64,000 bases of DNA from Kordia aestuariivivens. Lineage in GTDB: Bacteria; Bacteroidota; Bacteroidia; Flavobacteriales; Flavobacteriaceae. The translations under genes were made by a program, and so were the position numbers. The notes beneath the pieces were generated by a model. That model did no database searches. It was not told the DNA's origin and worked only from the letters and a program-made list of their open reading frames with translations. Positions 23,839 to 26,797 of this stretch are shown here, one piece after another. Positions within the stretch are counted from its first letter, which is position 1, and each line of letters opens with the position of its first letter. Location: the NCBI RefSeq assembly GCF_014397005.1, contig NZ_JACGWS010000006.1:1-64000 (forward strand), written 5' to 3'.

Positions 23839-23945
23839 ATTTCTTCATTTATAGATATCTACAAATTTATAAATCTGAAAATGCTTGTCTTGTTTTCAGA
23901 AATTAGGTCACATAACTTTGAATTGTCTTGATCGAGATAGGTCGC

Positions 23946-23973
23946 ATCCGAAAAACCTTAACAGAGTAGGAAT
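23946..23973 (+). promoter_or_regulatory. Shared upstream motif, copy a (before DUF4214 lipoprotein)
   Basis: ATCCGAAAAA, then CTTA, then AGAGTAGGAAT ending 23 bp before the ATG at 23997. The same order of blocks, two bases shorter, precedes the precursor gene at 24718. It suggests a common promoter or regulator site for these two genes. It does not match TAnnTTTG. Confidence 0.5.
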
Positions 23974-24611: not shown

Positions 24612-24672
24612 TCAGCTTATTTTTTTTCATCATATCAATACATCAAATTACGAACAGTTTTTAAAAAGCGGA

Positions 24673-24698
24673 ATCCGAAAAGCTTATAGAGTAGGAAT
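24673..24698 (+). promoter_or_regulatory. Shared upstream motif, copy b (before Cys/Thr-rich precursor)
   Basis: ATCCGAAAA, CTTA, AGAGTAGGAAT, ending 19 bp before the ATG at 24718; counterpart of 23946-23973. The intervening sequences differ, so the match is not part of a long duplication. Confidence 0.5.
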
Positions 24699-24717: not shown

Positions 24718-24966
24718 ATGAAAAAACAAAAAATTCAAAAGTTGGGAATTAAAAAATCAACTATTTCTCAATTGACACAGAATCAACTAAATGGTGGAGG
24801 TACATTTACCTGCCATGGTGGTTCTTGCTGTCCTACAGAAGCTGCTACATGTGCAAATACGTGTGCAGCGACCTGTGCTAACACGTGCGCAAATACATGC
24901 GCTACTTGTGGAACAGGTACAGGAGGAGTCAGAACTCGTGATTTCTGTCCAACAATTCAAATATAA
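24718..24966 (+). CDS. RiPP-like precursor with tandem Thr-Cys-Ala core (island 2)
   Basis: 82 residues. The leader (KIQKLGIKKSTISQLTQNQ) ends in LNGGG at residues 25-29 and fits the Bacteroidota GG-leader precursor pattern. The core begins with CHGGSCC, then runs through several TCAN/TCAA tetrapeptides (about residues 41-60) to TCGTGTGG and a C-terminal RTRDFCPTIQI. The regular Thr-x-Cys alternation is what a thioether-bridged or multi-disulfide peptide would show. No modifying enzyme, protease or transporter is adjacent, so maturation would be in trans. A terminator follows at 24994. The repetitive codons are not identical, so protein-level selection is likely. Confidence 0.7.
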   Translation: MKKQKIQKLGIKKSTISQLTQNQLNGGGTFTCHGGSCCPTEAATCANTCAATCANTCANTCATCGTGTGGVRTRDFCPTIQI

Positions 24967-24993
24967 TACTAATCTATCGATTGAATGATTATA

Positions 24994-25027
24994 AGAAGAC
25001 TGTCAATGAATTTTGAGGGTCTTTTTT
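24994..25027 (+). terminator. Terminator of the Cys/Thr-rich precursor gene
   Basis: AAGAC...GGTCTT hairpin with one mismatch in the stem, followed by T6 (25022-25027). Confidence 0.65.
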
Positions 25028-25044
25028 ATCGTTCAAATTAGCGC

Positions 25045-25247
25045 AAAAAAAAACCCGATCTTACGACCGAGTTCCTTTTTTTATTAACCAACCAAAACTT
25101 TAAATTATGAGAATTTCTCTTCTTAAAGTCGCAAAAGGAAACCACTCGCTTTTGCACTGCAAACATATGGCAACATTTTTATTATGCAAGCATAGTATTT
25201 AACTTTAACACAATTTTTACACTCACAACTATACTTCATCGATGTTT
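25045..25247 (-). ncRNA. Putative structured small RNA, copy 1
   Basis: About 200 bp duplicated at a constant offset of 526 bp (copy 2 at 25571-25773). Read on the minus strand it shows three hairpins: GCAAAAG/CTTTTGC (25131-25137 with 25149-25155), ACTTTAA/TTAAAGT (25097-25103 with 25123-25129, inner GAGA/TCTC), and a terminator AACTCGGTC-GTAA-GATCGGGTT (25052-25073) followed by a U-run of nine. The terminator stem contains two G-U pairs on the minus strand that would be mismatches on the plus strand, which fixes the direction. A palindrome TATGCAAGCATA at 25183-25194, conserved in both copies, lies near the presumed 5' end. A 30-codon plus-strand frame exists but is a weaker explanation. 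Confidence 0.5.
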
Positions 25248-25309
25248 CTTATTGAATTCACAACAAAATATGCATTTTACTGTCGATTATTCAATATTAT
25301 TTCAATTTC

Positions 25310-25558
25310 TAATTAACGTGAGTTCGATGTAAGAAATCGTCACTATAAGCCCGAAATATAATAAAATCAACACTTTGTCACTTCGAGCGCAGTCGAGAAG
25401 CTAAAGAACACGACTGTTTTTATTGAATCTCGATAGCTACGCTAGGTATTGAAATCAAAATATATTTTAATTTCAATAATGCTCGATTTGACATTTGTCT
25501 TAAAATACTGAAAAAACAAAATATTGAAAGTAACGTTATATCGAACTCACGTTAATTA
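25310..25558. mobile_element. MITE-like element with 19-bp perfect terminal inverted repeats
   Basis: TAATTAACGTGAGTTCGAT at 25310-25328 is the exact reverse complement of 25540-25558. The 249-bp interior has no open frame of note, is AT-rich, and carries one copy of the TCGAGCGCAGTCGAG dispersed palindrome (25377-25400). Size and perfect ends fit a non-autonomous transposable element. It lies exactly between the two RNA copies. No target-site duplication is obvious because the ends themselves are TTAATTA-like. Confidence 0.55.
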
Positions 25559-25570
25559 AAAAAGGTCATA

Positions 25571-25773
25571 AAAAAAGCCCGATCATAGGATCGAGCTTCT
25601 TTTTATTTATTAACCAACCAAAACTTTAAATTATGAAAATTTCTCTTCTTAAAGTCGCAAGAGGAAACCACTCTCTCTTGCACTGCAAATATAGGACGAG
25701 AATTATACTATGCAAGCATAGTATTTAACTTTAACACAATTTTTATATTCACAACTGTACTTCATCGTTGTTT
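25571..25773 (-). ncRNA. Putative structured small RNA, copy 2
   Basis: Paralogue of copy 1. The hairpin at 25657-25681 reads GCAAGAG/CTCTTGC where copy 1 has GCAAAAG/CTTTTGC, a compensatory base-pair change, and both loops are 11 bases. The terminator stem AAGCTCGATC-CTAT-GATCGGGCTT (25575-25598) again has a G-U pair that only works on the minus strand and is followed by U6-7. The inner stem GAGA/TTTC at about 25634-25645 is likewise G-U-compatible only on the minus strand. The palindrome is extended here to ACTATGCAAGCATAGT (25707-25722). It lies just downstream (minus strand) of the tryptophan dioxygenase gene, so a processed 3' UTR is an alternative. Confidence 0.5.
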
Positions 25774-25852
25774 ATTGATGGATTCTCAATGATATTTCAG
25801 TTTCTTTGATGAATACTCAGTAATTTGACACTTTTGACTTTTAAGATTTTGG

Positions 25853-26797
25853 TTATTTTAGTGTTTTATAGCCTTCTAAATTGGTAATTCCCCAGTTTTT
25901 TACTTCTTCTTCACTCCATAATTCAGGAAAAAAGATTCGTTTTTGATATTTTGGGTGCATATATTTCTGCCAATCGCTTCCGCCTGTCGCTTCTGAATTA
26001 CCTTTTTCAGAATTTATATATTTTCCTGCGGCATGATAATGATGCATTACCCAACTGATGTTTACTGTATGATCGTAATGACGCATTGCATTGATTAAAC
26101 TTTGATCGTTTTGATAATTTCTAGGCAATTGCTTGAATTTCGTCCAAAGATTGATAGTATTATATTCTTTCATGCAATTGATGAGTTCCTTTTTATACTT
26201 TTCATCAAAGTTGACCATCAATTTACTACGCTTGCCTGTTTTGTGATCGTTTCCTGCTACTTGCCAATACATATTGTTATACGCATGTATATATGGCGTT
26301 TCGCGATCAATGGTGGTTCTAAATCTGTAATCTATTAGATTGATTAATTCCGTAGAAGCGATTTCAATTTTACGGTATTGTACCGATTGAAAACCACTTG
26401 CAGGCGTTAAAGTATCGCGGAATTTCATGTATTGCTCTACTTCCATTCCATCGCCCATAATGTCGAAAGAGTTCGATAACATATCAAAGTATCTACTGAT
26501 TCGCATTAAATGCATGACGAATTTTTCGGGCTCAATGTTTTCGACATGCGCAATTTGTTGCATTTCCCAAAGAATCATCTTAAAGACCAATTCATTGATT
26601 TGATGATACATAATAAAAACCATTTCATCAGGCAATTGCGTACGTTGTGTTTGTAATCCTAAAAGCGCATCCAGTTGAATGAAATCCCAATATTTCATAG
26701 GTTCAGCGTGTAGTAATCCTGAAAGATGCACATCGGGATCTTGTCCCATGTCCAAATATTTTTTATCAATGGCTGCTAGTAATTCTTCTCTAGTCAT
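25853..26797 (-). CDS. Tryptophan 2,3-dioxygenase family protein (copy 2)
   Basis: 314 residues with the family marks MYHQINELVFK, SGFQSVQYRKIE, SWVMHHYHAAGKY and ATGGSDW. It is clearly related to the gene at 19063 but distinct throughout. Located 122 bp downstream of hpd and followed on the same strand by hmgA's neighbours in reverse order (hmgA, hpd, TDO are transcribed in that direction), so it belongs with aromatic amino-acid degradation. This copy is the better candidate for genuine catabolic TDO, making N-formylkynurenine from tryptophan. A paired inverted repeat lies between it and hpd, so co-transcription is uncertain. Confidence 0.85.
   Translation of the reverse strand: MTREELLAAIDKKYLDMGQDPDVHLSGLLHAEPMKYWDFIQLDALLGLQTQRTQLPDEMVFIMYHQINELVFKMILWEMQQIAHVENIEPEKFVMHLMRISRYFDMLSNSFDIMGDGMEVEQYMKFRDTLTPASGFQSVQYRKIEIASTELINLIDYRFRTTIDRETPYIHAYNNMYWQVAGNDHKTGKRSKLMVNFDEKYKKELINCMKEYNTINLWTKFKQLPRNYQNDQSLINAMRHYDHTVNISWVMHHYHAAGKYINSEKGNSEATGGSDWQKYMHPKYQKRIFFPELWSEEEVKNWGITNLEGYKTLK

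Follow-up and report, generated by a model that had tools for sequence, protein, structure and literature searches.

A small RNA gene conserved in Flavobacteriaceae and present in tandem in Kordia, with a start-codon complement and candidate mRNA targets

A stretch of about 200 bp occurs twice, at an offset of 526, in the 64,000 nucleotides of the Kordia aestuariivivens genome analysed here (the window), and the question it raises is whether the repeat encodes an independent RNA and on what such an RNA might act. A first-pass annotation had read it as a duplicated minus-strand small RNA, each copy ending in a strong terminator with a U-run. The repeat was upheld, positions 25076-25308 matching 25602-25834 (233 nt, 82% identity), and pairwise comparison of the 186-base RNA region gave 88% identity between copies a and b. 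Including their upstream boxes, the copies occupy 25045-25230 and 25570-25756 on the minus strand. The transcript bodies, whose 5' ends are approximate, were placed by folding and by a covariance model (R1, built from 22 Kordia copies) at 25045-25155 for copy a (model match 25045-25172, 146.5 bits) and at 25570-25681 for copy b (25569-25698, 155.5 bits). Start-to-start distances are 524-526 nt in the window; seven sister genomes have 273-280 nt, G009 has 374-377 and G002 has 4352. The window's copies flank an insertion-like spacer of 245 bp (25312-25556, outside the RNA and assigned to neither strand) with perfect 17-bp terminal inverted repeats; this spacer is MITE-like, contains a TTCGAGCGCAGTCGA repeat and has partial relatives elsewhere in Kordia.

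All parts of the two genes lie on the minus strand and were found in the same order. Sequence reading and pattern search predict a promoter for each copy, with a -7 element TATGTTTG at 25160-25167 and a -33-like CTTG at 25187-25190 in copy a (25160-25190 overall) and with TATATTTG at 25686-25693 and CTTG at 25713-25716 in copy b (25686-25716), the two elements being 19 nt apart in both. Further upstream stands a GTTAAAG box, operator-like in copy a (25203-25209) and repeated in copy b (25729-25735). Fold and covariation define hairpin 1 (25131-25155 with a UGGU loop in copy a, 25657-25681 in copy b), and folding places hairpin 2 at 25096-25130 and 25622-25656, its inner part holding a start-codon complement, UUCUCAUAA in copy a and UUUUCAUAA in copy b. 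An antisense core (25084-25114 and 25610-25640), complementary to TTAACCAACCAAAACTTTAAATTATGA, overlaps hairpin 2 and is nearly invariant in the 22 Kordia copies, and its flanks drift. Both copies end in an intrinsic terminator followed by a U-run, as first described, at 25045-25082 and 25570-25604 by fold and by the structure cells of the 22 copies. The linker GGUUGGUUA was unpaired at 0.8-1.0 in folds of both window copies and of one other genus; in these same folds the CAU stretch was mostly paired, which speaks against start-region pairing.

The differences between the two copies preserve this structure. The stem GCAAAAG/CTTTTGC (25131-25137/25149-25155) of copy a is replaced by GCAAGAG/CTCTTGC (25657-25663/25675-25681) in copy b, a compensatory exchange of an A-U for a G-C pair in hairpin 1, and the other differences leave the pairing intact through G-U in the minus-strand RNA: hairpin 2 changes from GAGAAAUUCUC to GAGAAAUUUUC, and the terminator from CUCGGUC to CUCGAUC opposite GAUCGGG. 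The initial observations on all three stems thus held. Minus-strand folds of both copies were more stable than 200 of 200 shuffled sequences (z -3.19 and -3.29). Fold energy alone leaves the strand undecided, because stable folds were obtained for the plus strands too (z -2.31, equalled by 4 of 200 shuffles, and z -3.79, equalled by none). The strand is fixed by the pairs themselves, the genus copies containing 62 G-U cells and no A-C cell; the pairing therefore holds for a minus-strand RNA.

The covariance model from homologues that the first-pass annotation had proposed as a check bore out the structure, with covariation above shuffled controls both in Kordia and in hairpin 1. Across 22 copies from 11 Kordia genomes, 99.7% of the structure cells were paired, 12 cells showed a change in both partners (1.9 on average after shuffling, reached in 0 of 500 shuffles) and double changes affected 6 pairs (shuffled mean 1.7, 0 of 500). 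Within the genus, the compensatory change in hairpin 1 was found in three of the 22 copies (G000b, G002a and G002b), and because a rough tree joins these three (support 0.85) it probably represents one event. The strong covariation of hairpin 1 stems from other genera. Over 38 distinct segments of this hairpin, 93.6% of the cells were paired (78.7 when shuffled); double changes numbered 42 (12.7 when shuffled) and extra pair types 17 (10.6). This hairpin was parsed in 114 of 128 distinct sequences, the 14 dropped being seven weak opposite-strand hits and seven true relatives not caught by the search expression, five of them from Capnocytophaga.

The RNA was found in all 11 Kordia genomes searched, with two full copies in nine of them, three in G009 and one in G010, and G003 carries an extra 97-base piece at a contig end. 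In the family Flavobacteriaceae, 299 genomes were sampled; the best R1 match reached E<=1e-6 in 77 of them and E<=0.01 in 144, many of the weaker matches among these 144 probably being chance or terminator hits. An exact search with the core yielded at least 119 stretches from named relatives, including Maribacter, Arenibacter, Allomuricauda, Zobellia, Cellulophaga, Croceitalea, Robiginitalea, Galbibacter, Capnocytophaga and others. R1, run on 80 of these loci (in three of which the RNA is cut by a contig or locus end), gave 89 matches, 82 to the RNA, covering 80 of 80 loci, and seven weak hits on the opposite strand. Because the named loci were fetched through the core itself, its conservation among them follows from selection and is therefore better judged on covariance hits, where all 28 of the non-Kordia loci taken from the top hits had UUUUCAUAAUUUAAAGU..GGUUGGUUA. 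A broader model applied to 395 genomes of the class matched 14 of them at E<=1e-5, eight within the family and six, more weakly, outside. With it, diverged homologues in the same gene order were recognised in four of the five listed genomes of genus g128, where GGUU(A/G)GUUAAUA comes after a core that reads (U)UUUCAUAAUUUAUAGU in three genomes and CAUAGU in one; in the one g128 genome folded, stem 2 still forms and the linker was unpaired at 0.56-0.95. Ribosomal protein bL27 of G498, compared in order to place g128, did not discriminate, being about 87% identical (counted by eye) to the best PDB chain (7jil_W, attributed to F. johnsoniae) and to Kordia alike. Outside the family, locus L549 has a similar CATAATTT..TTGGTTAGT stretch upstream of a terminator, so that, as judged from sequence, the RNA family is possibly wider than the Flavobacteriaceae. 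L549, L546 and L550 are weak class-level matches with TTGGTTAGT or GGTTAGTTGAT before a terminator, and are perhaps remote relatives.

Outside Kordia, a TAnnTTT(G/A) box was detected by pattern search in 89 of 92 loci and a GTTAAA direct repeat upstream of it in 71 of those 89; in tandem arrangements each copy keeps its own upstream boxes. The locus thus has the features of an independent bacterial small RNA, namely conserved secondary structure with covariation, its own promoter (predicted) and intrinsic terminator at the sequence level, and no conserved open reading frame. The initial reading of a real minus-strand small RNA is supported by covariation against controls, by the G-U signal for the strand, by promoter-like boxes and a terminator at fixed places, and by occurrence in many genera, and we are nearly certain that the window contains two adjacent sRNA genes. 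The Rfam search suggested at the outset found no family at its gathering score over the RNA, nor in the loci of 12 relatives; the only matches in the whole window are two DUF805b motifs (RF02914) elsewhere, at 23938-23972 before a DUF4214 gene and at 24665-24697 before a GG-leader precursor gene. Whether the RNA is Flavo-1 or 6S-Flavo had been left open, and it is neither: no Rfam family matches at its gathering score, and these two are absent even at E<=5 over 24900-25900. Near-matches (MicC, GibS, leaders) were set aside as falling below gathering scores and resting, by eye, largely on the terminator. The combination of GGTTGGTT with a terminator was likewise rejected as a general module, since a crude terminator rule flagged 4 of 19 sites in the Kordia sample (two of them the sRNA copies, two looking like chance) and 0 of 19 in G224. 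An operator-like sequence, GTTAAAGTNNGTTAAA, had 24 matches in 17 of 18 genomes, 16 of them at the sRNA, with one match for the reversed control. It was discarded as a regulon marker, as the other eight matches, named by eye, lie before ParA-like genes (four), inside a transketolase-like ORF (three) and elsewhere (one); at L518, L523, L531 and L534 it stands about 86-92 nt before the ParA-like gene.

The surroundings of the gene vary. Of 88 rows examined, 82 were genuine, and in 73 of these the nearest downstream ORF is of DUF3108 type and on the same strand. The upstream neighbour is of HPPD type in 37 rows and of patatin/Omp85 type in 28; Pfam was used to name the window's own proteins and similarity to name the others. 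In the window the DUF3108 gene lies 4.2 kb from the RNA, beyond genes on the opposite strand. Ten of the 11 Kordia genomes hold two or three copies, and in G010 the single copy stands directly before DUF3108. A GG-leader precursor gene adjoins the RNA on the other strand in G000, G002, G005, G006 and G009, most of which also have a DUF4214-like gene. In G002, whose copies are 4.35 kb apart, the first copy is accompanied by the precursor and DUF4214-like genes and the second by DUF3108, and in G005, G006 and G009 the precursor gene comes next and DUF3108 is not within the 1.5 kb fetched. Given these varied neighbourhoods in Kordia, the RNA can do without a DUF3108 gene in cis, and comparative sequence data establish the gene, its strand, its structure and its conservation together with this independence from neighbouring genes.

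Three other accounts of the conserved element were weighed against these data. A plus-strand small protein of 31 amino acids (MKISLLKVAKGNHSLLHC...) would explain why the corresponding ORF is kept, by rule, in 16 of the 22 Kordia copies with conservative changes, and peptide conservation on that strand had been named at the outset as the observation that would speak against an RNA. The ORF is nevertheless broken in six of the 22, loss by frameshift with the RNA kept having already been seen, and in 92 sequences of other genera it has 8 residues or fewer in 63, 9-20 residues in 13 and runs open to the end of the stretch in 16; together with the 62 G-U against no A-C cells this makes a protein scarcely credible, and the peptide was rejected as the conserved feature. 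The RNA could alternatively be cut from a read-through transcript of the upstream HGD-HPPD-TDO operon as a 3'-end derived sRNA, and it does lie on the same strand as that operon; in many rows the model start comes about 100-110 nt after the HPPD stop, and in the inspected Kordia loci the nearest copy has its linker 236-238 nt after the TDO-like stop. This origin seems improbable in view of the almost constant TAnnTTT(G/A) box and the frequent GTTAAA repeat, of the upstream boxes at each tandem copy, and of the change of upstream neighbour between HPPD and patatin/Omp85 types. A cis-acting leader or attenuator of DUF3108 would fit the prevailing gene order, in which that gene often begins about 90 nt past the terminator and still adjoins the RNA in G010 and at one G002 copy, but it is very improbable, because opposite-strand genes intervene in the window, a precursor gene replaces DUF3108 as the next gene in G005, G006 and G009, and in 52 of 79 loci a separate conserved element, TTTGGAAnAA..TTGTTT, precedes DUF3108. 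This element (e.g. in L092 and L119) is a possible alternative-sigma promoter.

We return to two tandem genes for one independent sRNA, which we are somewhat inclined to regard as acting in trans on the start regions of its targets. A predicted TAnnTTTG promoter of its own, preceded by the GTTAAAG box, would drive minus-strand transcription of each gene as far as the intrinsic terminator. The RNA of about 110 nt would consist of hairpin 1 with an exposed UGGU loop, hairpin 2, the unpaired GGUUGGUUA linker and the terminator. Hairpin 2 would present UUUUCAUAA, the complement of UUAUGAAAA, and its core (loop 2) and the linker could pair with a target start region 5'-AACCAACC..UUAUGAAAA, i.e. AACCAACC..ATGAAAA, which would block initiation as for the Bacteroides FopS RNAs. 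From the sequences we rate such pairing with target mRNAs as an evenly balanced proposition. More tentatively, we suggest that in Kordia a group of mRNAs for GG-leader lanthipeptide-like precursors is among the targets.

The latter suggestion comes from a search of the 11 Kordia genomes for the 23-mer complement with up to three mismatches, which gave 48 places besides the sRNA (3 for the reversed control), 46 of them with an ATG in register. Short GG peptides were flagged by rule at 33 of the 48 (31-35 by eye; among the 33, one is no precursor by eye and one is doubtful, and three further places are precursor-like, two of them truncated). Precursors recognised by protein model alone paired more strongly with the core than 334 other genes (mean -17.0 vs -14.4 kcal/mol, p=0.001; 28 parsed of the 30 best precursor loci, picked blind to the start region), but against shuffled cores this preference had p values of only 0.009-0.037. 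Since the precursors are paralogues with shared start regions, and G004 and G006 hold orthologues, the 48 places are not independent, and paralogy and the shuffle controls together make the link a modest one; it may be Kordia-specific or a by-product of the shared paralogue start regions. The leader model for class I lanthipeptides (NF038153) has 126 matches in the genome of K. aestuariivivens at E<=1, 33 of them over the cut-off. The GG-leader, Cys-rich precursor peptide encoded in the window (24718-24966) scored 18 bits against a cut-off of 22, being one of three below the cut-off among five precursor peptides scanned with NF038153, two of which were above it.

Among 372 Kordia gene starts, 50 reached -16 kcal/mol (35.8 when shuffled, 1 of 24 shuffles as high), with no clear excess at -18 to -22 kcal/mol (4-5 of 24 shuffles as high), and 371 gene starts of G224 showed no excess of complementarity. 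SusC/TonB-receptor starts were tried as targets and rejected, there being no enrichment and one of 29 usable starts below the 5th percentile. Outside the genus, a search of 30 genomes with the equivalent 23-mer gave 12 places besides the sRNA (control 3; 48 in the 11 Kordia genomes), and the 11 places fetched are mixed genes with no common family apart from one outer-membrane-like pair. Further candidate targets, seen in two Kordia genomes (L303, L309), are MFS-transporter starts of the form TTAACCAACCAAAAA..ATGAAA. Precursor genes lie beside the sRNA locus and, in G002, between the copies. The boldest proposal is that a family-wide anti-start-codon sRNA, duplicated in Kordia, became a switch over the large lanthipeptide-like precursor set; we consider it unlikely, and if it is true, one RNA would silence a whole peptide armoury.

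The conserved module of UUUUCAUAA plus GGUUGGUU might instead be the site of an RNA-binding protein, as a decoy or chaperone handle, and not an mRNA seed. In favour of this, the 3'UTR of an Hsp20 gene (so named by Pfam at one locus) has TTTCATrATGGTTGGTT..GTTGGTTAGT directly ahead of a terminator in five genomes of five genera, and two other gene ends have a like module, all among the matches listed; nor did the Kordia and G224 samples show any broad complementarity to gene starts. The module nevertheless retains the start-codon complement, the Hsp20 version is equally compatible with a second sRNA of the same seed, and its shape is partly a matter of design, as the search pattern already required TTTCAT and GTTGGTT; hence we hold protein binding to be rather doubtful. 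The module was seen at L390, L391, L393, L394 and L395, 30-43 nt after the Hsp20-type stop, and also at L404 and L406; it is possibly a 3'UTR-derived sRNA with the same seed.

As an sRNA proposed to pair with start regions, the window RNA belongs to a kind already known, and its family is absent from Rfam. Among the papers listed by our literature searches, none named the RNA or the locus. Rfp18 of Flavobacterium psychrophilum is likewise described as a genus-conserved flavobacterial sRNA with strong predicted structure (PMC9723704), predicted to pair with several mRNAs via one stem-loop; the targets named in that account are metalloproteases, two such mRNAs falling in the deletion strain. Compared by description only, the window RNA is a possible ortholog of Rfp18. 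FopS of Bacteroides thetaiotaomicron is presented as multicopy, with a canonical promoter and with translation blocked in vitro, and FopS and GibS are described as pairing with translation initiation regions (PMC11697453), as proposed here. This likeness rests on the description, in which FopS is about 65-70 nt long, carries its seed at the very 5' end and has mainly SusC targets, whereas the window RNA has an internal seed and SusC is not enriched. The Rfam model of GibS (RF04182) scored 24.8 bits, below its gathering score of 115. Flavo-1 (RF01705) and 6S-Flavo (RF01685) are also reported as Bacteroidetes RNA families (PMC2864571), but the window RNA does not match them. BatR, another terminator-bearing sRNA of B. 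thetaiotaomicron, again likened by description, is said to cover the initiation regions of cell-surface genes but to rely on 5' processing, in a different taxon (PMC10861873).

The family described here would be a ready addition to Rfam. To our knowledge, few sRNAs of Bacteroidota outside Bacteroides have a known function. Translation in this phylum is described as proceeding largely without Shine-Dalgarno sequences (PMC6847099), and an RNA so strongly conserved, bearing a start-codon complement and encoded at one locus in many genera, would offer a tractable model for sRNA action there. If the link to the precursors is true, it would moreover help to explain the silence of many peptide precursors in one genome.
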